Assembly (NCBI GenBank): GCA_902628375.1
Contig: CACOMS010000005.1
Location: 1 to 64,000, forward strand
Source of the DNA: an uncultured SAR86 cluster bacterium
GTDB taxonomy: Bacteria > Pseudomonadota > Gammaproteobacteria > Magnimaribacterales > Magnimaribacteraceae
Direction of reading: 5' to 3'
Length of the DNA stretch: 64,000 nt
The translations under genes were made by a program, and so were the position numbers. This document shows positions 37,968-61,655 of this stretch, piece by piece (positions within the stretch are counted from its first letter, which is position 1; each line of letters begins with the position of its first letter). The notes beneath the pieces were generated by a model. It ran no database searches, was not told where the DNA came from, and saw only the letters and a program-made list of their open reading frames with translations.

Positions 37968-38717
37968 ATGAAGCATAAGTTACTTAATCAGAAGCTAACA
38001 ATAGGAAGCTGGATAACTCTTGCTCATCCTTCCATTGCGGAGATTATGTCGCGTGCTAATTTTGATTGGTTAGCGGTAGATCTAGAACATAGCGTTATAA
38101 CTATAAGAGAAGCTGAGGAGCTTATTCGTATTATTAGCTTGTCGGGGGTTACGCCTTTAGTTCGTCTTACTTCTAATAATGCAAACCAAATAAAACGAGT
38201 AATGGATGCTGGCGCTCATGGAATAATCGTACCGATGGTTAACTCGTCTGAAGAAGCTCTAAAAGCAGTGAAATCAACACGATATGCTCCTCATGGGATA
38301 AGAGGGGTGGGCTTAGCTCGTGCTCAAGGATATGGAACTAGTTTTGAAAATTATATTTCTTGGCAAGAAGATCAAGCTATAGTCATTGTTCAAATTGAGA
38401 GCATTGATGCAGTAGATAACCTAGAGGAAATATTTTCTGTAGATGGAGTTGATGGATATATTATTGGCCCATATGACCTTTCAGGTTCTATGGGTATACC
38501 CGGACAGTTTGATAATCCTGAATTTATTGGAGTCATTGAAGAAATAAACAAAACTGCGAAAAAGATGAAAATAACTAGTGGCATACATATTATTGAACCT
38601 GAGCCCAAAGAATTGAAAAAGCGCATAGAAGAGGGCTATCGATTTATAGCATATAGTCTAGACATCAGAATGCTTGATGTATCTTGTAGAATGGGGATAG
38701 ATAGTATCTCTGACTGA
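37968..38717 (+). CDS. HpcH/HpaI family aldolase (2-keto-3-deoxy sugar acid type)
   Basis: GSWITLAHPSIAEIMSRANFDWLAVDLEHS, VMDAGAHGIIVPMVNS, IVQIESIDAVDNLEEI, YIIGPYDLSGSMG. Confidence 0.91.
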   Translation: MKHKLLNQKLTIGSWITLAHPSIAEIMSRANFDWLAVDLEHSVITIREAEELIRIISLSGVTPLVRLTSNNANQIKRVMDAGAHGIIVPMVNSSEEALKAVKSTRYAPHGIRGVGLARAQGYGTSFENYISWQEDQAIVIVQIESIDAVDNLEEIFSVDGVDGYIIGPYDLSGSMGIPGQFDNPEFIGVIEEINKTAKKMKITSGIHIIEPEPKELKKRIEEGYRFIAYSLDIRMLDVSCRMGIDSISD

Positions 38718-38723
38718 AAAATA

Positions 38724-39491
38724 ATGAAATCAATTGCAATAATTCCTGCGCGAATGGGTTCTTCCCGCTTTCCAGGTAAGCCAATGGCAAAAATACATGG
38801 CATTCCTATGATTGGTCACTGTTATATTAGGACTGCTATGTGTGCAGAGTTGCATGATACCTATGTAGCTACTTGTGATGAAGAAATTTATTCATACATT
38901 AAATCAATACAAGGTAAAGTTGTGATGACATCGGATATTCATGAAAGAGCAAGTGATAGAACAGCAGAGGCTCTGCTCAAAATAGAAGAAAAATCCAAGG
39001 AAAGATACGACGTTGTTGTTATGGTGCAAGGGGATGAGCCAATGATAACTCCAGATATGATTAAAAAATCACTGGAGCCTTTTAAGAGCGAAAAAGATTT
39101 AAATGTTGTAAATTTAATGGCTGAGATGAAGACCTCACAAGAATTTGAAGACCCTAACGAGGTAAAGGTAGTAATTGATAATGATAATAATGCTATGTAT
39201 TTCTCTCGTGAACCAATACCTTCGAGAAAAAAAGGAATTACAAATGTTAAGATGTTGAAGCAAGTTTGTATTATCCCATTCAGAAGAAATTATTTAATAG
39301 AATTCAATGACACTGAAGAAACTGAGCTAGAGAAAATTGAATCTGTAGACATGTTGAGGGTACTCGAGAGTGGCGGAAAGGTAAGAATGATCCGTACCGA
39401 TGAGAACACATTTAGTGTTGATACAAAACAAGAGCTAAGAAATGTAGAAAAAATGATGTCTGAAGATGAGTTAATGAAAACATATTTATAA
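38724..39491 (+). CDS. KdsB-like CMP-3-deoxy-ulosonate cytidylyltransferase
   Basis: IIPARMGSSRFPGKPMAKIHGIPMI, VMVQGDEPMITPDMI, AMYFSREPIPS. Confidence 0.85.
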   Translation: MKSIAIIPARMGSSRFPGKPMAKIHGIPMIGHCYIRTAMCAELHDTYVATCDEEIYSYIKSIQGKVVMTSDIHERASDRTAEALLKIEEKSKERYDVVVMVQGDEPMITPDMIKKSLEPFKSEKDLNVVNLMAEMKTSQEFEDPNEVKVVIDNDNNAMYFSREPIPSRKKGITNVKMLKQVCIIPFRRNYLIEFNDTEETELEKIESVDMLRVLESGGKVRMIRTDENTFSVDTKQELRNVEKMMSEDELMKTYL

Positions 39492-39599
39492 TCTTTTAAA
39501 TAGATGTCTGATAACACAAAAAATTAATTGCAAAGTCTTAATGAAAAAAATCATTATTACTGTGTTGCAAGATTTATAGGATTTGCAAAGGCAATATAG

Positions 39600-41507
39600 A
39601 TGTTAATTGATAAATACAACTATAAAGTCGATAAAATTATTGTTAGTAGTTATCGGAGTAATCATAACAAAAAGAACCTACTTTCAATTTTATGGAATAG
39701 TAACGAGGAAGGTGATCAATTTCTAAACCTATATGGGTATGTTGAAGAAAATTCAGATAGGCTTAGAAAGAAATATCTCAGATTTATTAGTGATTTCAAT
39801 AATTCAGAAATAAATTCTATAAAACTATATGATCATTTTAAATTAAAAAATGGCTATAACTTACTTTGGATGTCTTTAATTTCAGAAAAGAGTCCATTTA
39901 AGTCTCCAAAGATTTTAGATTGCCTTAAGCTTCTTGCTCTTGAAGAGATTATTCTCTCAGCTGGCCCATCCTCTATAGATTATTTTGGTTCAAACTACAA
40001 TGAACACCGATCTATTAAAAATTTATCAACAAGTTTAGGTCTTAGATATCGTTGGAAATATCACTTGCCTCAAATGAAAGTTTCAAGAGCTACTATTATT
40101 AAATCCATTTTATTTGCTTGTCCCTATTTATTTCAGGCTTTTATTAGTATGGTCAGATACATTTATATGAGAATGCCTTTTTTTCGGAATATGAATATTA
40201 AATGGAATGATCATAATAAATCTGTTTTCTTTTTCTCTTATTTCGTTGCCCTGGATGATGAGAAGCTAAAAGACAACATTTTTTATTCTCATCAGTGGGG
40301 TCCTTTAAAAAAGATTTTCCACGAGATGGCTATAGATACTAATTGGATGCATCATTACATTTCTAGCTCTCAGAATCTAACCCCTAACATTGCAAAAAAA
40401 AATATAAATATTTTCAATCAAAATCCAGAAATTAATGGATGCCATAATTTCATTGACAGTTATTTCTCATTTAAGATTATTTTAGAGGTGATAAATGAAT
40501 ATTTACACATATATATAAAACAACTTAGGTTTTCAATTGTAAATAAAATTTTTACCCCTAGAAAGTCAAAAGCAAATTTTTGGTTTTTCTTAAAACATGA
40601 TTGGTATAGCTCGATAAGAGGGGTGGTTGCAATTCAAAACTTATTAATGATTAAACTTATTGATAAAGCATTTAAAGATCTTCCAAAACAAAAGATAGGA
40701 TTTTACCTTATGGAAAATCAAGGTTGGGAGATGGCACTCATTAATGGATGGAAAGTAAATAATCATGGAACATTAATTGGTGTCGCTCACTCTACTGTAC
40801 GGTATTGGGATTTGCGGTACTATGATTTAGAAGAAACGTCTAAAAAAAATACCAAACCTAAACCAGACTTTTTTACTGTCAATGGTCTGGCCGCACAAAA
40901 AAATTTAAAAGCATCAAAAAGCAGGATAGATAATTTAAGAAATGTTGAGGCACTAAGATATCTTTATCTAAATGACCAGATTCAGGCCATACACAATAAA
41001 AGATCAGAACAACATAATAAGATATTAGTTCTAGGTGATATTCAGAAGGATTTAACCAGAAGCATGATTGACTGCTTCAATGATATTGCTGATCAGTTTG
41101 ATCATTATGACTTTATATTTAAACCTCATCCAGCAAATATCATTGAAGATAAGAACTTTTCAAGTTTTAAGCCCACTACAACAGATGAACACTTAAATGT
41201 CCTTTTACAGAACATAGATTGTGTTATTGCATCTGCGGCAACATCATCAGGTCTTGAAGCTTATATCTTAGGCATACCTGTTATTACATACTTTGATAGT
41301 AAGGAATTTAATATAAGTGCGCTTAGAGGTATGCATAATGCAGTTTTTGTTAACAATCCTAAAAGTCTAGCAAAGGCTATCATGAATCTAAAAAGCACAG
41401 AAGGCGGCGAGGAGGGGCAGGATGTATTTTGGCTAGATGATGCATTGCCTAGATGGCGTAAATTGTTATCGGAATTTGAGTATAATCTGTTAGACGATAA
41501 GGGCTAA
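39600..41507 (+). CDS. Large surface-carbohydrate protein, probable GT-B glycosyltransferase-like
   Basis: Soluble 635 aa; C-terminal FIFKPHPAN...IDCVIASAATSSGLEAYILGIPVITYFD resembles capsule/sialyl-type glycosyltransferases. Confidence 0.55.
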   Translation: MLIDKYNYKVDKIIVSSYRSNHNKKNLLSILWNSNEEGDQFLNLYGYVEENSDRLRKKYLRFISDFNNSEINSIKLYDHFKLKNGYNLLWMSLISEKSPFKSPKILDCLKLLALEEIILSAGPSSIDYFGSNYNEHRSIKNLSTSLGLRYRWKYHLPQMKVSRATIIKSILFACPYLFQAFISMVRYIYMRMPFFRNMNIKWNDHNKSVFFFSYFVALDDEKLKDNIFYSHQWGPLKKIFHEMAIDTNWMHHYISSSQNLTPNIAKKNINIFNQNPEINGCHNFIDSYFSFKIILEVINEYLHIYIKQLRFSIVNKIFTPRKSKANFWFFLKHDWYSSIRGVVAIQNLLMIKLIDKAFKDLPKQKIGFYLMENQGWEMALINGWKVNNHGTLIGVAHSTVRYWDLRYYDLEETSKKNTKPKPDFFTVNGLAAQKNLKASKSRIDNLRNVEALRYLYLNDQIQAIHNKRSEQHNKILVLGDIQKDLTRSMIDCFNDIADQFDHYDFIFKPHPANIIEDKNFSSFKPTTTDEHLNVLLQNIDCVIASAATSSGLEAYILGIPVITYFDSKEFNISALRGMHNAVFVNNPKSLAKAIMNLKSTEGGEEGQDVFWLDDALPRWRKLLSEFEYNLLDDKG

Positions 41508-41527
41508 TCAAAATCAATAAATTAAAT

Positions 41528-42487
41528 ATGAAATCTAATAAAGTACTCATAACGACCTTTCCTTTTGGAGAAGTAGATGATTTGCCCATTAAAATCCTCA
41601 AAGAAGAGGGGTTAGATTATTTAATCAATCCATTAGGTAAAAAACCTAATGAGAAAGAACTAGCAGAAATGTTGACTGATTTTGATATGGTGATTGCAGG
41701 TACAGAGAAATACACTCAAATGGTTCTTAATTCTGCTAAAAAATTAAAATTTATTTCTAGGGTTGGAATTGGTCTAGATGGAATTGACTTTTCATTGACA
41801 AATCAGAGAAAAATTAAGGTCTCATATACTCCTGATGCGCCCACTTCTAGTGTGGCAGAGCTTACATTGGGGTTTATATTAACTCTGATGAGGAATCTAA
41901 TAATATCCAATAAAAATATGCATAATAATAATTGGAAAAAACTTATCGGTAAAAGCTTCAGTGCATCTAAAGTTGGTATTATTGGTTTGGGTCCAATCGG
42001 AAGAGAGGTTTATAGACTTTTAGCTTCCTTTAATTGTAATGAGATACTTTTGAATGATATTTATGAAAACAAAGAAATTAAGTTAATAGGAAATACAAAA
42101 TGGACTGATAAAGAGTCAATCTTTAAAAATGCTGATATTCTTACGATTCATGCGCCTCTTAATGAACACACAAAGAATATGATAGATAAATCAGTTCTTC
42201 TAAGTATGAAAAAAGATGCAATTCTAATTAATACTTCCCGAGGAGGTATTATTAATGAAAATGATTTATTGAATGTTTTGTCTTCAGGACATCTCGGTGG
42301 AGTTGCTTTAGATGTATTTGAAGCAGAACCATATAGGGGAGGATTAACAAAAATTGAAAGGTGCCTACTGACTCCGCATATTGGTACAATGACGGCTGAC
42401 TGTCGAACAATGATGGAAGTGCAAGCAGTCAAAGAGGTTGTTAGGTTCTCTAAAGGCAAGAAATTAAAAAGAATGATAAATATTTAA
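41528..42487 (+). CDS. D-isomer-specific 2-hydroxyacid dehydrogenase (3-phosphoglycerate dehydrogenase-like)
   Basis: SRVGIGLDGIDF, VGIIGLGPIGREVYRLL, HAPLNEHTKNMIDKS, LINTSRGGIINENDL, GGVALDVFEAEP. Confidence 0.92.
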   Translation: MKSNKVLITTFPFGEVDDLPIKILKEEGLDYLINPLGKKPNEKELAEMLTDFDMVIAGTEKYTQMVLNSAKKLKFISRVGIGLDGIDFSLTNQRKIKVSYTPDAPTSSVAELTLGFILTLMRNLIISNKNMHNNNWKKLIGKSFSASKVGIIGLGPIGREVYRLLASFNCNEILLNDIYENKEIKLIGNTKWTDKESIFKNADILTIHAPLNEHTKNMIDKSVLLSMKKDAILINTSRGGIINENDLLNVLSSGHLGGVALDVFEAEPYRGGLTKIERCLLTPHIGTMTADCRTMMEVQAVKEVVRFSKGKKLKRMINI

Positions 42488-43567: not shown

Positions 43568-44230
43568 ATGGATTTGAATAAACTTTCAGAATATAGAACA
43601 TCTATCTTTGATTGTGATGGAGTTTTATTAAACTCAAATAAAATTAAGAGCGAAGCATTTTATGAAACTACTTTTATTTATGGAGTAGATTACGCTCAAG
43701 AATTCTTGAAATACCATAAGGAAAATGGCGGAGTGTCAAGATTTGAGAAGTTTAATTATTTTATTTCAAATATTATCAAGGAAGATATAACTAAAGAAAA
43801 GCAAGTAGATAGTTTACTAAAAGATTTTTCTAAAATTTTAGATAAGAATTTAAGAAAAGCCGAAGTTGTACCAAATCTTGAGATTATAAGATCGAAGCTT
43901 CCTCGACAAGACTGGATGGTAGCATCTGGATCTAAAGAAGATGAATTAAGAGCAATACTAGAATATAAAGGTATAAGTAGTTTTTTTAATAAAGGCATAT
44001 TTGGAAGCCCCCTTTCTAAGATTGAAATTATTCAAAAAAAATTTGAAGCTAATGAGCTGAAAAAACCAATTATATTCTTTGGTGATAGTTATTATGATTA
44101 CTTTTGCGCAAAGAAATTTGAGATAGATTTTGTATTCATTTGGGAGTGGACAGAAGTCACAGACTGGAAAAACTTTTGTAAAGAAAATAAAATTCCTTTT
44201 ATGAAAAGTATTTCAAGCATAGTTTTATGA
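43568..44230 (+). CDS. HAD superfamily hydrolase
   Basis: SIFDCDGVLLNSN, VASGSKEDELRAIL, IIFFGDSYYDYFCAKK. Confidence 0.85.
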   Translation: MDLNKLSEYRTSIFDCDGVLLNSNKIKSEAFYETTFIYGVDYAQEFLKYHKENGGVSRFEKFNYFISNIIKEDITKEKQVDSLLKDFSKILDKNLRKAEVVPNLEIIRSKLPRQDWMVASGSKEDELRAILEYKGISSFFNKGIFGSPLSKIEIIQKKFEANELKKPIIFFGDSYYDYFCAKKFEIDFVFIWEWTEVTDWKNFCKENKIPFMKSISSIVL

Positions 44231-45173: not shown

Positions 45174-45848
45174 ATGAAACCTTGCATAATCCCAGCTAGA
45201 GGAGGCTCTAAAGGAATACCCAGAAAGAACTTAAAGGAAATAAATGGAAGACCTCTTATAGAATGGACTTTAGCTCAAGCAATAAATTCATCTAAATTGG
45301 ATAATATTTTTGTATCAACTAATGATTCAGAAATAGCTCGTGTTTCCTCTAAAATGGGTGCAGAGGTTATTAATAGGCCGGATTCAATATCTGGTTCGGA
45401 TGATACATCTGAATCTGCTTTGTTACATTCTTTAAAAGAAATTAAGGACATATATCAGAGAGATATTGAATTTGTTATATTTTTACAAGCAACTTCGCCG
45501 CTTAGGCTTTCTGGTGATATTGATAAAGCTATAAATCTATTTGAAACCTCAGGTGCAGATTCTTTATTTTCTTCTTCAGTAATGGAAGACTTAACTGTCT
45601 GGAACAAGGGATCAGATTGGGAAAGTGTCAATTTTGATTATAAAAATAGACAAACTAGACAAAACTCTAATACACAATATATTGAAAATGGTTCTATTTA
45701 CATCTTTAAGCCAGAGATTCTTTTTAATAATAAAAATAGGCTGGGTGGAAAAATTGAAAGCTATATTATGAAACAATGGCAGGTTCATGAAATAGATAGT
45801 TTTGATGATTTAGAGTTAGTAGAACATTATATGAAAAAGTATTTATGA
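45174..45848 (+). CDS. Acylneuraminate cytidylyltransferase family (NeuA-like)
   Basis: CIIPARGGSKGIPRKNLKEINGRPLIEWTL, FLQATSPLR, YIENGSIYIF. Confidence 0.91.
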   Translation: MKPCIIPARGGSKGIPRKNLKEINGRPLIEWTLAQAINSSKLDNIFVSTNDSEIARVSSKMGAEVINRPDSISGSDDTSESALLHSLKEIKDIYQRDIEFVIFLQATSPLRLSGDIDKAINLFETSGADSLFSSSVMEDLTVWNKGSDWESVNFDYKNRQTRQNSNTQYIENGSIYIFKPEILFNNKNRLGGKIESYIMKQWQVHEIDSFDDLELVEHYMKKYL

Positions 45849-46987
45849 GCATAAAGAATATAAATATCAGATTAAGGTCAGAAATAAAAATTGGATTAGG
45901 TTTGTTGAATGAACTTCAAGACGAATTAGATTCTTCTTCTCTATATTTGGGGAGAATGCTTGTCTTGTATGACAAGAATTTAGAAGACTCAGACTATTTC
46001 ATTAAGATACTATCAAAGTTGAAGGAAAAGAATCCAGGTTATTTTTTTCAAGAACTTTCTTTAATGGGTGAACCATCATACGAACTTTTAGAGGAATTAC
46101 TCGAAAAATTACCTATGGGTGATTTTGATTCTATAATTTCATTTGGAGGAGGAAGTCTAATGGACGTAGGCAAGGGGATCGCTCTTCTTTCAACAAACCC
46201 AGAAAAACCAAAAGACCTCAAAGGTTTTCCAACAAATCTTAATAACCCGCTTCCTCATATAACTGTACCTTCTATTTTAGGAAGTGGAAGTGAAGCAAGT
46301 TTCAACGCTGTTTTTGTGGATGAAGAAGAAGGGAGGAAGTTAGGCATTAATTCAGTTAATAATTTTCCTTATTTAGTTCTTGTAGATCCAAACCTTACCT
46401 TAAGTGCTCCAATTTCTTCAGTTATTTCTTCTTCTTTAGATTCAATGGTCCATTGTGTAGACAGTTTTGGTTCACAAAAATCAAACTCCTTTACAAGAAT
46501 GTTTTCCATTGAGGGTTTCCGTAATATTTGGCACTTTCTCAATAATTGTGATCTAAAAGATCCTGAGTCAAGAATATATCTCGCTAAATCTAGCATTATG
46601 GGAATATATGCCTTAATGAATTCTGGTGATGGCCCTACAAATGGTTTTGCTTATTATTTTGGTGTTAAAGATAAAATACCTCATGGTTTAGCAGGAGGCA
46701 TGTTTTTAAAAGATGTCATGATGTGGAACTATAGATCAGGATATAAAGATTATGCGGATTTACTTATTGATACTAATTTAAATTTAGATATGTTTTTTGA
46801 CTCATTTAATGACTTACATACAAAACTCAGTCTTCCAAGATTAACTGAATATGGCTATCTTGCACAAGATTGTAAGAAGTTATCGCATGAAGTTTCGACT
46901 GCGTTGACGGGATCTTTTTCAGGTAATCCAATATTATTTGATCAGAAATCTACAAAATGGGTCTTAGACCAACAGTTTAAGGAGTAA
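45845..46987 (+). CDS. Iron-containing alcohol dehydrogenase family, KdnB (Kdo 8-oxidase)-like
   Basis: SFGGGSLMDVGKGIALL, VPSILGSGSEASFNAVFVDEEEGRKLGINS, DSMVHCVDSF; immediately upstream of KdnA-like aminotransferase. Confidence 0.7.
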   Translation: MSIKNINIRLRSEIKIGLGLLNELQDELDSSSLYLGRMLVLYDKNLEDSDYFIKILSKLKEKNPGYFFQELSLMGEPSYELLEELLEKLPMGDFDSIISFGGGSLMDVGKGIALLSTNPEKPKDLKGFPTNLNNPLPHITVPSILGSGSEASFNAVFVDEEEGRKLGINSVNNFPYLVLVDPNLTLSAPISSVISSSLDSMVHCVDSFGSQKSNSFTRMFSIEGFRNIWHFLNNCDLKDPESRIYLAKSSIMGIYALMNSGDGPTNGFAYYFGVKDKIPHGLAGGMFLKDVMMWNYRSGYKDYADLLIDTNLNLDMFFDSFNDLHTKLSLPRLTEYGYLAQDCKKLSHEVSTALTGSFSGNPILFDQKSTKWVLDQQFKE

Positions 46988-48130
46988 GTGATGGCAGGAG
47001 CAGAAATAATTGGAAAGGAAGAATTAGAAGAGATCATTAAATTATTTTCTGATGATAAAGTGAACCTTTATAGATATGGTCAAAATAATTACCTTACAAA
47101 AGAATTTGAAGATATGTTTTCTAGTTATATGGGGACTAAATATTCACATGCCGTTTCTTCTGGAACAGCAGCGATACACAGCGCTCTTGCAGCAGTAGGA
47201 GTATGTCCTGGAGATGAAGTTATTACTACAGCTTGGACATTTGTTGCTCCTATAGAAGCAATTATCTCTTTAGGGGCTGTTCCTGTTCTAGTCAACTTAG
47301 ATGATTCTTATCATCTAGATCCAAGAGAGATAGAGAATAAGATTACACATAAAACGAAAGCTTTAGTTTCAGTTCCAATGTGGGCTGCTCCTAATATGGA
47401 TGAAATAATTAGAATATGTAAAGAAAATTCAATATATTTGGTAGAGGATTCTGCTCAGTCTTTAGGAGGAGAATATAAAGGGCAAAAGTTAGGAACTTTA
47501 GGAGATATAGGAACTTTTTCTTTTGATGCCGGCAAGACACTTCATACAGGAGAGGGAGGTATGATAGTAACAAATAATAAGGAGCTATATTTAAAAGCTG
47601 CTGAGTTTTCAGACCATGGGCATATGCATTTGGACAACCTACCAAGAGGAAAAGATCCTAGAAGAAAACCGGGATTAAATTATAGAATGAGTGAGCTCAC
47701 TTCAGCAGTAGGCATAGCTCAATTGAAAAAGATTGATCTAATTCTTAGTAAAACTAAAGAGAACAAATATAAGTTGAAAGAGTTACTGAAAAGTATATCT
47801 AACTTGGAACTAAGAAAATTTCATGATGAAGAAGGCTCTTTAGGAGATACTTTAATATTTTCAGTAGACAGTATGGACATTGCGATTGAAGTAGAAAAAT
47901 CTATGTTAAAGAACGGTTTTGGAACAAAGATACTTCCTGAAGCTATGGATTGGCATTATGCAGGATCTTGGACTCATATTTTTGACAAGACACCAGAAGA
48001 GTTAGAAATTGAGTTTTCTTCAACTGGCAAACTTCTAAGAAGGAGCGTTTGTATCAATATCCCAATTAAGCTTAAGGATGAAGATATTGAAAGCATCTTT
48101 TCTTCCATAGTTACAGTTCTGAATAAGTAG
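46988..48130 (+). CDS. DegT/DnrJ/EryC1/StrS aminotransferase, KdnA-like
   Basis: SHAVSSGTAAIHSALAAVGVCPGDEVITTAWTFVAPIEAI, VEDSAQSLGG, GTFSFDAGKTLHTGEGGMIV (PLP Lys). Confidence 0.85.
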   Translation: MMAGAEIIGKEELEEIIKLFSDDKVNLYRYGQNNYLTKEFEDMFSSYMGTKYSHAVSSGTAAIHSALAAVGVCPGDEVITTAWTFVAPIEAIISLGAVPVLVNLDDSYHLDPREIENKITHKTKALVSVPMWAAPNMDEIIRICKENSIYLVEDSAQSLGGEYKGQKLGTLGDIGTFSFDAGKTLHTGEGGMIVTNNKELYLKAAEFSDHGHMHLDNLPRGKDPRRKPGLNYRMSELTSAVGIAQLKKIDLILSKTKENKYKLKELLKSISNLELRKFHDEEGSLGDTLIFSVDSMDIAIEVEKSMLKNGFGTKILPEAMDWHYAGSWTHIFDKTPEELEIEFSSTGKLLRRSVCINIPIKLKDEDIESIFSSIVTVLNK

Positions 48131-48144
48131 CTTTAAAGATAGCC

Positions 48145-50391
48145 ATGAAAATTACCAGAAATATAGAAGACTACATAATAAGTAAAAGCTCTTCGATTAA
48201 TGAAGCTTTAAAAAAATTAGAAGAATCTGGCTTACAAATTCTTTTTTTAGTGGATTCAAAAAAAAGACTGAGCGGGGTAGCCACGGATGGAGACATCAGA
48301 AGATGGTTACTAAAACAAGAAAAACCAGATTTAAGTTTAGAAATTTCAAATGCTTCTCAATCTACTTACGTCAGCATTCTTAAGGGAACGGGTGAGCACA
48401 AGCTCCCAAACCTTTTTTCTAGAGGAATCAGATATATTCCAATATTGGATGCAAATGGACTAATCTGCGAGGTTGCAACTGATCAATATTTTCCAATTTC
48501 TATAGGAGATAAGAAAATAGGAAAAGATCAGAGTGTATACATCATAGGAGAAATAGGAAACAATCATCAAGGCAACCTAAAGCAAGCTAAGCTTTTAATA
48601 GAAATGGCATCTGAGGCTGGAGTTGACTCAGCTAAATTCCAGATGCGATCTATGAATAGACTTTATGAAGAAGAAAATTCATTCAAGAAAAACTCCAGTA
48701 AAGACTTAGGAGCAGAATATACCCTAGATCTTTTAGATAGATTTCAATTATCAGATGATGATTTATTTAGAGCTTTTGATCATTGCAAAAAGTTCAATAT
48801 AGAGCCTTTATGTACTCCTTGGGATGAAGAAAGTTTAGAAAAGCTCAGCTCATATGGATTAACCGCTTTTAAAGTGGCATCTGCTGATTTTACTAATCAT
48901 GACCTTCTTAGAAAGGTTGCTCAAAAAAAACTTCCTATGTTTTGTTCAACTGGCATGTCTACTGAGATTGAGATAGATGAAAGTGTTTCTTTACTGAGAC
49001 ATTTAGGTTCTGAATGTATCCTTCTTCATTGTAATTCTACCTATCCTTCTCCTTATAGAGATATAAATCTTAATTATTTTAGGCGTTTGTTAAAGTATGG
49101 TTTTGATGTCGGTTATTCTGGTCATGAAAGGGGCATCTTTGTTCCTATAGCTGCCGTAGCTCTTGGAGCTTGTGTCATTGAGAAACATATAACTTTTGAT
49201 AAAGAACTTGAAGGAAATGATCACAAAGTGAGCCTACTTCCTGATGAATTGTCGCAAATGGTTAGAAATATAAGGTCTTTAGAAGAATCAATGGGCAAAT
49301 CTGGGCCAAGAGATTTATCACAAGGGGAGATGATAAACAGAGAGGTTTTAGCGAAGAGCCTTTATGCAAAAGTTGATATAGAGCAGGGGGAAAAGATACT
49401 AAGGAAAGATATAGGGATAAAGAGCCCTGGACAGGGTTTGCAGCCAAATAAATTAGATGATTTAGTTGGGAAAACATCTTATCGGAAGGTTCAAAAAGGA
49501 ACCTTCTTCTTTAATTCAGATATTGCTCAGAAACTAGAAAAAAAAGAAAAGTATATTTTTTCGCGTCCTTACGGGATACCCATTAGATATCATGATTACC
49601 AAAATCTTGCTTTAGGAACGAATCTTGATTTTGTTGAATTTCATCTTTCTTATAAGGACCTAGAAATATCTCCAGCTGATTATATTAAGTCTAAACCTGA
49701 ATTTTACTTTTCTGTTCATGCCCCTGAGCTATTCAAGGGAGACCATATCTTAGATTTATGCTCATTAGACTCTGAATATAGAGAAATTTCTTTAGATAAT
49801 ATGAAGATGGTTATTGAGCATGTCAAAGAATTAAGAAATCAATTCAATCCCCAGAAAGATCCTATACTTGTTATTAATGCAGGAGGTTGGAATAGAGATG
49901 GTTTTATAAGCAAAGAACAAAAGACTCAAAAATATCGTATTCTAAAAGAAAGTCTTTCTAATCTTGATCTTGAAAGCATTAGCTTAGCTATCCAAACTAT
50001 GCCTCCATTTCCATGGCATTTTGGAGGACAGAGCTTTCATAATCTATTTGTAGATCCAAAAGAAATAAATGATTTTTGTTCAGAGACAGGGTTAAAGGTA
50101 TGTTTGGATATATCTCATTCTATGATGGCTTGTAATTACTATGGTTGGGATTTAAAAGGCTTTATAGAAACAATTAAAGACGATATTTCTTATTTACATA
50201 TAGTCGATTGCAAAGGATTTGATGGGGAAGGTATCCAAATTGGAGAGGGCGATGTTAACTTTGAAGAATTATCAAAAACACTTAATAAAAATTGCCCCCA
50301 AGTGCCATTTATACCTGAGATTTGGCAAGGACATAAAGATAGTGGAGAGGGGTTCTGGAAGGCATTAGATTTCTTAGAGTTATATTTTTAA
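48145..50391 (+). CDS. Multidomain sialic-acid-synthase family protein: CBS-like + NeuB + SAF + TIM-barrel sugar isomerase/epimerase-like
   Basis: VDSKKRLSGVATDGDIRRWL (CBS); YIIGEIGNNHQGNLKQAKLLI...HCNSTYPSP...GYSGHERG...IEKHITFDK (NeuB); REVLAKSLYAKVDIEQGEKI (SAF); FSVHAPE...CLDISHSMMACN...HIVDCKG (TIM barrel). Confidence 0.87.
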   Translation: MKITRNIEDYIISKSSSINEALKKLEESGLQILFLVDSKKRLSGVATDGDIRRWLLKQEKPDLSLEISNASQSTYVSILKGTGEHKLPNLFSRGIRYIPILDANGLICEVATDQYFPISIGDKKIGKDQSVYIIGEIGNNHQGNLKQAKLLIEMASEAGVDSAKFQMRSMNRLYEEENSFKKNSSKDLGAEYTLDLLDRFQLSDDDLFRAFDHCKKFNIEPLCTPWDEESLEKLSSYGLTAFKVASADFTNHDLLRKVAQKKLPMFCSTGMSTEIEIDESVSLLRHLGSECILLHCNSTYPSPYRDINLNYFRRLLKYGFDVGYSGHERGIFVPIAAVALGACVIEKHITFDKELEGNDHKVSLLPDELSQMVRNIRSLEESMGKSGPRDLSQGEMINREVLAKSLYAKVDIEQGEKILRKDIGIKSPGQGLQPNKLDDLVGKTSYRKVQKGTFFFNSDIAQKLEKKEKYIFSRPYGIPIRYHDYQNLALGTNLDFVEFHLSYKDLEISPADYIKSKPEFYFSVHAPELFKGDHILDLCSLDSEYREISLDNMKMVIEHVKELRNQFNPQKDPILVINAGGWNRDGFISKEQKTQKYRILKESLSNLDLESISLAIQTMPPFPWHFGGQSFHNLFVDPKEINDFCSETGLKVCLDISHSMMACNYYGWDLKGFIETIKDDISYLHIVDCKGFDGEGIQIGEGDVNFEELSKTLNKNCPQVPFIPEIWQGHKDSGEGFWKALDFLELYF

Positions 50392-50607: not shown

Positions 50608-51705
50608 ATGAAAAATGTTCTCGTTTTTAATTATATAGCTACTTGGACTCCTAGAGATCATTCTAGATACAGAATAGATAAAATCCTTGAATTAGGTATA
50701 GACATTATAGTTATATCTCCTGACTGTTCCTTTAATGCCAGTTATCATATTAACTCAGATGATCAAAAACTTGTTGAGAATAGATTTAGTAAAATTAATA
50801 AAAGTAAGGTTTTATTCTTATTTCTAAATCTAGGCATGCCTAGTTTGTGGCTTTTGAAGTCAGTAAAGAAGAACTTTTTTCAGTGGGGTTTTTACATAAA
50901 ACATCCAATCCCTGAGTCTACATATTTACCAGAATTCACATCTGGAATTAAAAAATATATTTATTTACTAAGAAGTATAATCAGGTCAATATTTTATTGG
51001 CTATTTTATAAGCTTACTTCTCGACCAGATATTTTTCTATTTGGAGGAAGCTCAATGAAGAGGACTATAGAGTATAAGATTTCTACAAGAAAAATACCTT
51101 GCCCTTCAAGCGATTTTGAGAACTTCTTAGATGCCTCTAATACGTTTACAAATAAAGAAGATAAAATTATGGTTTTTCTAGATGAATTTGGTCCTATGCA
51201 TCCTGATCAAGAACTTGTGAGGAACTATAGCGGAATAAATCCAAGCAAATCAGGTGACTATTATCACCATATTGAGTCAAGTCTAGATGTCTTATCAGAA
51301 GGTTTGAAATGTAGAACTATTATTGCTGAGCACCCTAAGGCAGATTATAAGAAATACGAGTATTTTAAAGACTTTTTTTCTATTAAAAATAAGACAGCTC
51401 AATTAGTTGGGTGTGCTGAATATGTCACATTACATAAAAGCACGGCTATTAGCTTTGCAATACTGAATAACAAAAAGATGATTTTTATAGATCCTTCAGA
51501 AGCAGCTGATCGAGAATATAGAAGAAGGGTTTCAGATTTAGCTAAATTCTTTAAATGCAATCTTTTTGATTATAGATCTCATAAAGGTGACTTAGGTTTA
51601 TATACTGCTTCGAAAGAAAGTTACGAAAAATATAAAGATCTTTTTATTAAACCAAAAGAGTGTAGTAATAATGAATCCGCTTTAATTATCAATTCCTTAT
51701 TCTGA
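50608..51705 (+). CDS. Uncharacterised polysaccharide-locus protein (possible glycosyltransferase)
   Basis: 365 aa intact ORF in the island; FLDEFGPMHPD, TIIAEHPKADYKKYEY, EYVTLHKSTAISFAI; no family confidently recognised. Confidence 0.5.
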   Translation: MKNVLVFNYIATWTPRDHSRYRIDKILELGIDIIVISPDCSFNASYHINSDDQKLVENRFSKINKSKVLFLFLNLGMPSLWLLKSVKKNFFQWGFYIKHPIPESTYLPEFTSGIKKYIYLLRSIIRSIFYWLFYKLTSRPDIFLFGGSSMKRTIEYKISTRKIPCPSSDFENFLDASNTFTNKEDKIMVFLDEFGPMHPDQELVRNYSGINPSKSGDYYHHIESSLDVLSEGLKCRTIIAEHPKADYKKYEYFKDFFSIKNKTAQLVGCAEYVTLHKSTAISFAILNNKKMIFIDPSEAADREYRRRVSDLAKFFKCNLFDYRSHKGDLGLYTASKESYEKYKDLFIKPKECSNNESALIINSLF

Positions 51706-60225: not shown

Positions 60226-60888
60226 ATGGTTATAAGAGCATTAGATATCTTATTTGCAAGCCTTGCATTATTGATATTGGCCCCTTTGTTACTTCCAATT
60301 TGTCTAATTCTTAGGTTCTCAGGAGAAAAAGAAGTTCTATATCTACAGCCTAGAGTAGGGAAAAATCAGTCAATTTTCTATTTATACAAATTTACTACTA
60401 TGGTAAAAAATAGTTCGGATTTTGGTTCAGGCGACATAACTATAAAAGATGACCCGCGCGTTTTGCCTTTTGGAAAGTTACTAAGAAAGACTAAAATAAA
60501 TGAATTACCACAATTACTAAATATAATATTTGGAGATATGTCTATAGTTGGTCCTCGTCCTTTAGTAAAAAAAACTTTTGATAAATATGAAAATAACTGT
60601 ATTGATATAGCTTCTGTCAAGCCAGGATTAACAGGCATAGGATCTCTTATTTTTCGAGACGAAGAATCAATTCTGGATAAAAGTAATGACCCTATTAAAT
60701 TCTATTTTGATGAAATTCATCCCTATAAAGGCACTCTAGAGGTATGGTTTGTTAAGAATATGAGTATAAAATTATACTTTCAGGTAATTTTACTAACTGT
60801 ATGGGTCTTATTATTTCCAAGATCTAATTTACCTTTTCAGATTTTTGGAGATTTACCCGATAAACCTAATTTTTTAGAAAAGACATGA
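60226..60888 (+). CDS. Undecaprenyl-phosphate sugar-1-phosphate transferase (PglC/WcaJ-like)
   Basis: RALDILFASLALLILAPLLLPI, LYKFTTMV, LRKTKINELPQLLNIIFGDMSIVGPRPL, VKPGLTG. Confidence 0.92.
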   Translation: MVIRALDILFASLALLILAPLLLPICLILRFSGEKEVLYLQPRVGKNQSIFYLYKFTTMVKNSSDFGSGDITIKDDPRVLPFGKLLRKTKINELPQLLNIIFGDMSIVGPRPLVKKTFDKYENNCIDIASVKPGLTGIGSLIFRDEESILDKSNDPIKFYFDEIHPYKGTLEVWFVKNMSIKLYFQVILLTVWVLLFPRSNLPFQIFGDLPDKPNFLEKT

Positions 60889-61655
60889 AGATAGTTGTAG
60901 TAAGTGGAGGTTTTGATCCATTACATTCTGGACATATAGAATATTTTGAGGAAGCTTCTAGGTTGGGGGATAAATTATTTGTTGCTTTAAATAGCGATCA
61001 ATGGCTGATAAACAAGAAAGGAAAGTATTTTTTGCCACTAGAGGAGAGAAAAAGAATAATCTCTTCATTGTCTATTGTAGACAAAGTAATAGAGTTTGAA
61101 GATGATAAATTAGGCAGCTGTATCAATGCATTAGAAAAAATTAAAAGAGAGAACTTAGGAGATAGAATAATTTTTTGTAATGGAGGGGATAGAACTAAAG
61201 AGAATATACCTGAAATGAAAGTTGATGACTGCGAATTTGTTTTTGGTGTTGGGGGAGAAGATAAGAAAAACTCATCTAGTTGGATATTAAAGGACTGGTC
61301 ATATGACAGCGAAGAAAGAGTATGGGGAAAGTTCTTTAATTTATTTACTGAATCAGGATTAAAAGTTAAAGAGTTAATAGTATACCCAAACAAAGGAATG
61401 AGTTTTCAGAGACACTTTCATAGAAACGAGATTTGGTTTATAAGCAAAGGATCATGCGAAGTAAACTTTTCAAAAAACAAGCCAGATTCTTATGAGACAA
61501 TATCTTTACAAAAGGGAGATACATTTTTTGTACCTTTAAAGTCCTGGCATCAAATTATCAATTTAACAGAAGATCCTTGTCACATTATTGAGATTCAATA
61601 TGGAGATAAAACAATAGAAGATGACATAGAAAGACTAAGGTTTTACGAAAACTGA
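60885..61655 (+). CDS. Fusion: cytidylyltransferase-like (RfaE2/TagD type) N-domain + cupin C-domain
   Basis: VVSGGFDPLHSGHIEYFEEASRLGDKLFVALNSD (HxGH); C-terminal FQRHFHRNEIWFISKGSCEVNF cupin. Confidence 0.87.
   Translation: MKIVVVSGGFDPLHSGHIEYFEEASRLGDKLFVALNSDQWLINKKGKYFLPLEERKRIISSLSIVDKVIEFEDDKLGSCINALEKIKRENLGDRIIFCNGGDRTKENIPEMKVDDCEFVFGVGGEDKKNSSSWILKDWSYDSEERVWGKFFNLFTESGLKVKELIVYPNKGMSFQRHFHRNEIWFISKGSCEVNFSKNKPDSYETISLQKGDTFFVPLKSWHQIINLTEDPCHIIEIQYGDKTIEDDIERLRFYEN

Follow-up and report, generated by a model that had tools for sequence, protein, structure and literature searches.

An operon of an uncultured SAR86 cluster bacterium joining a KdnA-clade aminotransferase to NeuA- and NeuB-type enzymes: a candidate route to a CMP-activated, terminally aminated ulosonate

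Introduction

Which sugar is made by an operon that places relatives of the Shewanella enzymes KdnB and KdnA beside enzymes of the sialic-acid branch? The question arose from a stretch of 64,000 nucleotides (positions 1 to 64,000, forward strand, of contig CACOMS010000005.1, assembly GCA_902628375.1; hereafter the window) from an uncultured SAR86 cluster bacterium. An ulosonic acid with a terminal amine is already known, in the literature surveyed, in the form of 8-amino-Kdo (Kdo8N), which has been called a hallmark of Shewanella (PMC6357163). A first-pass annotation of the window had described a three-gene cassette, NeuA-like, KdnB-like and KdnA-like, and had ascribed to it the probable biosynthesis of an amino-ulosonate, named as 8-amino-Kdo-like. 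Here we analysed the genes, their relatives and their distribution.

Organisation of the operon

The window carries a long polysaccharide-type cluster on the plus strand, at the centre of which lie the genes for a NeuA-type synthetase, an iron-type alcohol dehydrogenase, a DegT aminotransferase and a NeuB fusion protein (Table 1). The three open reading frames of the first-pass cassette were found to be open and full-length, each with its expected Pfam domain, and the dehydrogenase peptide quoted in that annotation was present in the translation. The neuA and dehydrogenase genes overlap by 4 bp (ATGA), the aminotransferase gene follows with a gap of 0 bp, and the NeuB fusion begins 14 bp further downstream, a spacing which suggests translational coupling of the four genes. 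As the genes abut or overlap and the fusion follows so closely, the three-gene span is part of a four-gene operon; the cassette was thus real, but its limits had left out the NeuB fusion of the same unit. For the aminotransferase gene, a GTG at 46988 is given as the start; since the codon directly after it is an ATG (46991) and homologues begin at that methionine (MAGAE), ATG 46991 is the likelier start. All four genes recur with their order kept in G044, a genome from another family of the order, at 58, 62, 68 and 59% identity, and Chlorobiaceae have the first three, so that the arrangement is unlikely to be due to chance.

Table 1. Genes of the operon and a neighbouring hydrolase gene, in window coordinates
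Gene product	Position	Strand	Length	Pfam match	Proposed role or placement
HAD_2 hydrolase	43568..44230	+		HAD_2	Two genes upstream of neuA
NeuA-type CMP-ulosonate cytidylyltransferase	45174..45848	+	224 aa	CTP_transf_3 1.9e-25	
Type III iron-type alcohol dehydrogenase (Fe-ADH)	45845..46987	+		Fe-ADH 9e-31	Proposed NAD-dependent terminal-CH2OH oxidase
KdnA-clade DegT aminotransferase	46988..48130	+	380 aa	DegT 6.5e-77	Proposed terminal-aldehyde aminator
CBS - NeuB - SAF - xylose-isomerase-like TIM barrel fusion	48145..50391	+	748 aa	NeuB 5.4e-77, AP_endonuc_2 3e-19, SAF, CBS	Proposed ulosonate synthase

The HAD_2 hydrolase is a possible sugar phosphatase of the pathway, although the link is weak: its best NCBIfam match, below cut-off, was the beta-PGM family and not a YrbI/KdsC type, and no counterpart was found adjoining the cassette in the G044 locus (L014). 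Elsewhere in the cluster, two proteins gave no Pfam match (39600-41507, 635 aa; 50608-51705, 365 aa). A cytidylyltransferase-like protein with a cupin-like C-terminus (60885-61655) was found near the amination genes, with recurring copies in L014 (4849-5622) and L015 (290-1060) at 64% and 59% identity. A further run (37968-42487) comprises an HpcH/HpaI-type aldolase, a second, KdsB-type synthetase above cut-off and a PGDH-like gene; the similar run of HpcH, cytidylyltransferase and PGDH in L111 (1400-3927) hints at a possible aldolase-based CMP-ulosonate module that recurs.

The aminotransferase and the dehydrogenase

The aminotransferase belongs firmly to the KdnA clade, as the first-pass comparison had proposed. 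Its best PDB match was KdnA of Shewanella oneidensis (5k8b) at 259 bits, 80 bits ahead of the next (179), and a tree that included further DegT enzymes placed it, at 100/100, with S. oneidensis KdnA and the loci of canonical type, and not with ArnB or WecE of E. coli. The characterised member of this clade aminates the terminal aldehyde of an ulosonate. K183, at the position expected for the PLP lysine of DegT enzymes, was invariant. Within the KdnA superclade, the enzymes of the window, L014 and Chlorobiaceae formed a clade of their own (100/100), separated from canonical KdnA by 23 fixed differences, the loss of five residues from a loop and a shortened C-terminal segment; the canonical set was anchored by L021, whose adjoining dehydrogenase matches the KdnB structure 5k8c at 598 bits. 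Scans of viral contigs with the aminotransferase and with the NeuB fusion yielded no relatives, and a plasmid search with the aminotransferase gave partial DegT matches only, none covering 80%.

The dehydrogenase, by contrast with the claim of a KdnB-like enzyme, is a sound type III alcohol dehydrogenase that appears only distantly related to KdnB. KdnB was its 24th PDB sequence match, at 60 bits as against 86 for a methanol dehydrogenase, and while an AF2 model (pLDDT 85.7) confirmed the Fe-ADH fold, the two KdnB structures ranked only 24th and 35th in the fold search. In the tree, the enzymes of the window, L014 and Chlorobiaceae formed a separate clade (100/99), which joined canonical KdnB and L015 at 92/92 across flagged long branches; all KdnA-linked dehydrogenases were set apart from those of E. 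coli at only 63/86. Placement in clades unrelated to KdnA and KdnB, which would have spoken against the first-pass reading, does not hold for the aminotransferase and holds only in part for the dehydrogenase. A grouping of the window-type enzymes with canonical KdnB that left out L015 was rejected (p-AU 0.009), L015 grouping with the window. The third metal ligand, His in canonical KdnB, FucO (263) and others (330 in human ADHFE1), is Asn in the window, in L014 and in all five Chlorobiaceae enzymes (motif NSGDGPTNGFAYY), and Ala in L015, so that one of the four ligands of the KdnB-type set (Asp and three His) is changed. Metal-free type III dehydrogenases exist, maleylacetate reductase being an example in which the Asp ligand is the one changed (PMC5125639). 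The metal site of the window enzyme may be altered, which would not imply inactivity, although the loss of the His ligand makes its activity uncertain.

The synthetase and the NeuB fusion

The adjacent synthetase is, judging by its matches and phylogeny, of the NeuA type and not a KdsB. Its best NCBIfam model was PseF (110.7 bits, under the cut-off of 205.7), its best PDB matches were NeuA proteins (6ifd, 117.5 bits), and together with the NeuA enzymes of L014 and of the Chlorobiaceae trio it formed a 96/97 clade apart from KdsB. The combination of a NeuA-type synthetase with a NeuB fusion, as first described, was borne out by this tree and by the domain families. As the identical clade of window, L014 and Chlorobiaceae was recovered in all three trees (96/97 for NeuA, 100/99 for the dehydrogenase, 100/100 for the aminotransferase), the trio appears to move as a unit.

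In the NeuB domain, KSPG replaces KRPG at the Arg314 site in all three fusions (window, L014 and Ensifer), giving Ser where every aligned SAF-bearing non-fusion NeuB has Arg. The Neisseria chains 4ipi and 4ipj served to locate this column; they carry Ala and Lys at it, and we take them to be the published R314 mutants. Arg314 contacts and positions the N-acetyl group of ManNAc, and R314A is inactive (PMC6795526). The loss of this residue would be compatible with mannose or Man-6-P as the substrate. No PseI or NeuB equivalog cut-off was reached by the fusion. Full-length homologues were found in G044 and on plasmid pT173e of Ensifer canadensis (48.5%), where the fusion adjoins neuA behind a bifunctional PMI-ManC gene, and neither dehydrogenase nor aminotransferase is present; this pair would be fitting for a mannose-derived precursor to which amination is an add-on module. 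The Ensifer neuA and fusion (L112, 11333-14313) lie in a stretch without a listed gene in PLSDB. The TIM barrel keeps the Asp, His and Glu positions expected of this fold, but in all three fusions Gln stands where the presumed first ligand would be. The sole PDB sequence match of this domain was a weak one to MJ1311, and the domain folded alone gave a pLDDT of 47, too poor for a fold search.

Distribution of the cassette

An aminotransferase match at cut-off was obtained in 4 of the 203 genomes of the window's order: the window's own (G000, 67% complete), G044 (94% complete), G158, where the order is NeuB, NeuC, CBS, dehydrogenase, aminotransferase, NeuA, and G180 (partial). In Chlorobiaceae, the trio stands without an adjacent NeuB (L024, L025, L029 and L037; L026 has the same order with a gap). 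A KdnA-clade aminotransferase was present in 80/86 genomes of this family and a SAF-less NeuB, not a close relative of the fusion NeuB (about 33-36% identity), in 81/86; as both are core there, their co-occurrence is weak evidence of a link. NeuB is nevertheless found in both lineages that carry the trio, fused within the operon in one and SAF-less and near-universal in the other, and we counted this for a pathway that acts on the NeuB product.

Other KdnA-clade genes also adjoin NeuB (L015, L016, L028, L030 and L031). In the last four, which derive from Actinomycetota, a genome of the window's class and Prochlorococcus, the KdnA-clade gene stands beside a glycosyltransferase and NeuB. Two genomes with a KdnA-clade gene beside NeuB (G574 and G575), both possibly incomplete, gave no match for KdsA or WaaA. 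In Prochlorococcus (L028, 1294-3200), the contig with the KdnA-clade gene has no Fe-ADH, and a PhyH-like gene (weak, below cut-off) is found instead.

The substrate of the pathway

The housekeeping kdsA, kdsB and waaA genes of G000 lie on contigs other than that of the window. No protein matching PF02350, the family of hydrolysing, NeuC-type UDP-sugar 2-epimerases, was found in G000 or G044; owing to the incompleteness of G000 its absences count little, so that the argument rests on G044, and it does not extend to Chlorobiaceae, where a PF02350 protein is present. Taken with the loss of Arg314, the lack of a NeuC-type epimerase points away from Neu5Ac or legionaminic acid and towards a non-N-acetylated hexose.

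In Chlorobiaceae, a YrbI phosphatase gene beside NeuB scored higher on the Kdn-9-P phosphatase model (140-145 bits) than on KdsC (125-132 bits) in 4/4 cases, whereas the kdsA-adjacent YrbI showed the reverse (66-70 as against 106-113 bits) in 3/3 cases; all these scores are under the equivalog cut-offs and serve as comparative evidence only. In the kdsA-adjacent copies (L121 858-1430, L122 785-1402, L123 1306-1878), PVDGVL replaces DxDG and the nucleophile Asp is lost, while the intact DxDG copy adjoins NeuB. The idea of two working YrbI phosphatase routes in Chlorobiaceae is weakened by this loss. For Bacteroides thetaiotaomicron and Prymnesium, it is established that enzymes of this kind make Kdn from Man-6-P (PMC6200933). 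Searches of three genomes from the window's order (G000, G044 and G158) found no YrbI phosphatase, and the Kdn-9-P route is thus incomplete there.

Discussion

From gene content, spacing, domain families, conservation, clades and residue changes, we infer the following reactions, substrate, order of steps and destination. The NeuB domain would join PEP to a non-N-acetylated hexose, mannose or a similar sugar being the likeliest, and so form Kdn or a nonulosonate close to it. This hexose may be supplied or edited by the TIM barrel of the fusion, and the CBS domain may regulate the reaction. The dehydrogenase would then use NAD+ to oxidise the terminal CH2OH (C9) to an aldehyde, which the KdnA-clade aminotransferase would convert to an amine, and NeuA would activate the aminated product as a CMP-sugar for a surface polysaccharide. 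We give this sequence of oxidation, transamination and CMP-activation of a NeuB product a probability of about 0.55. That the operon yields a CMP-activated, terminally aminated ulosonate of one kind or another can be held with rather good confidence; terminal amination of an ulosonate, which the first-pass annotation had put forward, remains the best reading. We lean modestly towards the NeuB product, and not Kdo, as the sugar that is aminated, and the further step of calling it Kdn-type is tentative.

The dehydrogenase and aminotransferase could instead act on Kdo to give 8-amino-Kdo as in Shewanella, the NeuA-type enzyme or the KdsB-type protein encoded at 38724 activating it and the NeuB sugar being separate. 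The aminotransferase has the canonical L018, L019 and L021 and the kdsB-linked L027 among its relatives, Kdo genes are present in G000, G044 and Chlorobiaceae genomes, measurements have shown Kdo in Chlorobaculum tepidum (PMC12285230), the Chlorobiaceae trio lies apart from NeuB, and the KdsB-type gene at 38724, some 6 kb upstream, passes its cut-off. However, the synthetase next to the pair is not a KdsB, NeuB lies inside the operon in both the window and L014, G044 has no second KdsB and so no counterpart of the upstream gene, the window-type aminotransferases are set off from canonical KdnA by the deletions and fixed differences described above, and KdnA-clade genes stand beside NeuB in genomes without detected KdsA or WaaA. 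We consider amination of Kdo rather unlikely. Three lines, namely the location of the Kdo genes elsewhere, the loss of Arg314 and the lack of a NeuC-type epimerase in G044, favour a non-N-acetylated nonulosonate made by NeuB; the 8-amino-Kdo-like product named at first has thus become the less likely one, and the nonulosonate, listed there among other options, the favoured one.

The two amination enzymes might instead work before NeuB, converting the hexose precursor to a terminally aminated hexose (for instance at C6) that is then condensed with PEP, with the same kind of final sugar. Gene order does not fix the order of reactions, and the presence of a TIM barrel (PF01261) in the fusion suggests that a free sugar is handled further; yet the pair is co-inherited with neuA and not with one kind of neuB, and in the account of Gattis 2013 that is cited in PMC5125639, the characterised KdnB and KdnA work on an ulosonate that is already complete. 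This order of events seems remote to us. A little less improbable is that the pair serves a different component of the polysaccharide, for example a keto-sugar or a nucleotide sugar, and is a mere neighbour of neuA and neuB. DegT aminotransferases act mostly on nucleotide sugars, the dehydrogenase is close to general type III enzymes and several epimerases are encoded in the window cluster. Against this stand the affinity of the aminotransferase for KdnA, and not for ArnB or WecE, and the identity of the trio in two phyla with nothing else in common directly around it.

Oxidation and amination of the NeuB product, which we prefer, would share with Shewanella Kdo8N biosynthesis (KdnB, KdnA and KdsB; 5k8c, 5k8b) a type III dehydrogenase and a KdnA-clade aminotransferase beside a CMP-ulosonate synthetase, and the proposed terminal-amination chemistry. 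It differs in its dehydrogenase, which falls outside the clade of canonical KdnB and has lost a His from among the metal ligands, in its aminotransferase, which has a clade to itself marked by deletions in a loop and at the C-terminus, and in the NeuB fusion within the operon; no KdsB-type gene is linked as in Kdo8N, the adjacent synthetase being NeuA-type, the housekeeping KdsB lying on another contig and the upstream KdsB-type gene being unmatched in G044. With the Kdn pathway of B. thetaiotaomicron (Kdn-9-P synthase, YrbI-type Kdn-9-P phosphatase and CMP-Kdn synthetase) it has in common a NeuB-type synthase and a NeuA-type synthetase, and in Chlorobiaceae also a YrbI by NeuB whose best score is with the Kdn-9-P phosphatase model; the window has in addition the dehydrogenase and aminotransferase, its NeuB is fused to CBS, SAF and TIM domains, and YrbI is missing from the searched genomes of its order. 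The clusters for neuraminic, legionaminic and pseudaminic acids share the NeuB and NeuA domain families, but differ from the operon in that G000 and G044 lack a NeuC-type epimerase, Arg314 is replaced by Ser and the PseI and NeuB equivalog cut-offs are not reached. Ensifer pT173e has the same four-domain fusion at full length beside NeuA; the operon differs from it by its dehydrogenase and aminotransferase and by the PMI-ManC gene that precedes the Ensifer pair.

With some reserve, we propose that a CMP-9-amino-9-deoxy-Kdn-type sugar may be made in almost all green sulfur bacteria, and sporadically in the order of the window, by a type III dehydrogenase whose metal site is altered or missing together with a KdnA-clade transaminase. 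If this is true, amination chemistry would be joined to the sialic-acid branch, giving a zwitterionic sugar and an altered surface charge. That almost all Chlorobiaceae have the trio suggests a core role in the cell envelope within a phylum that is well studied, and an undescribed amino sugar may coat the green sulfur bacteria.
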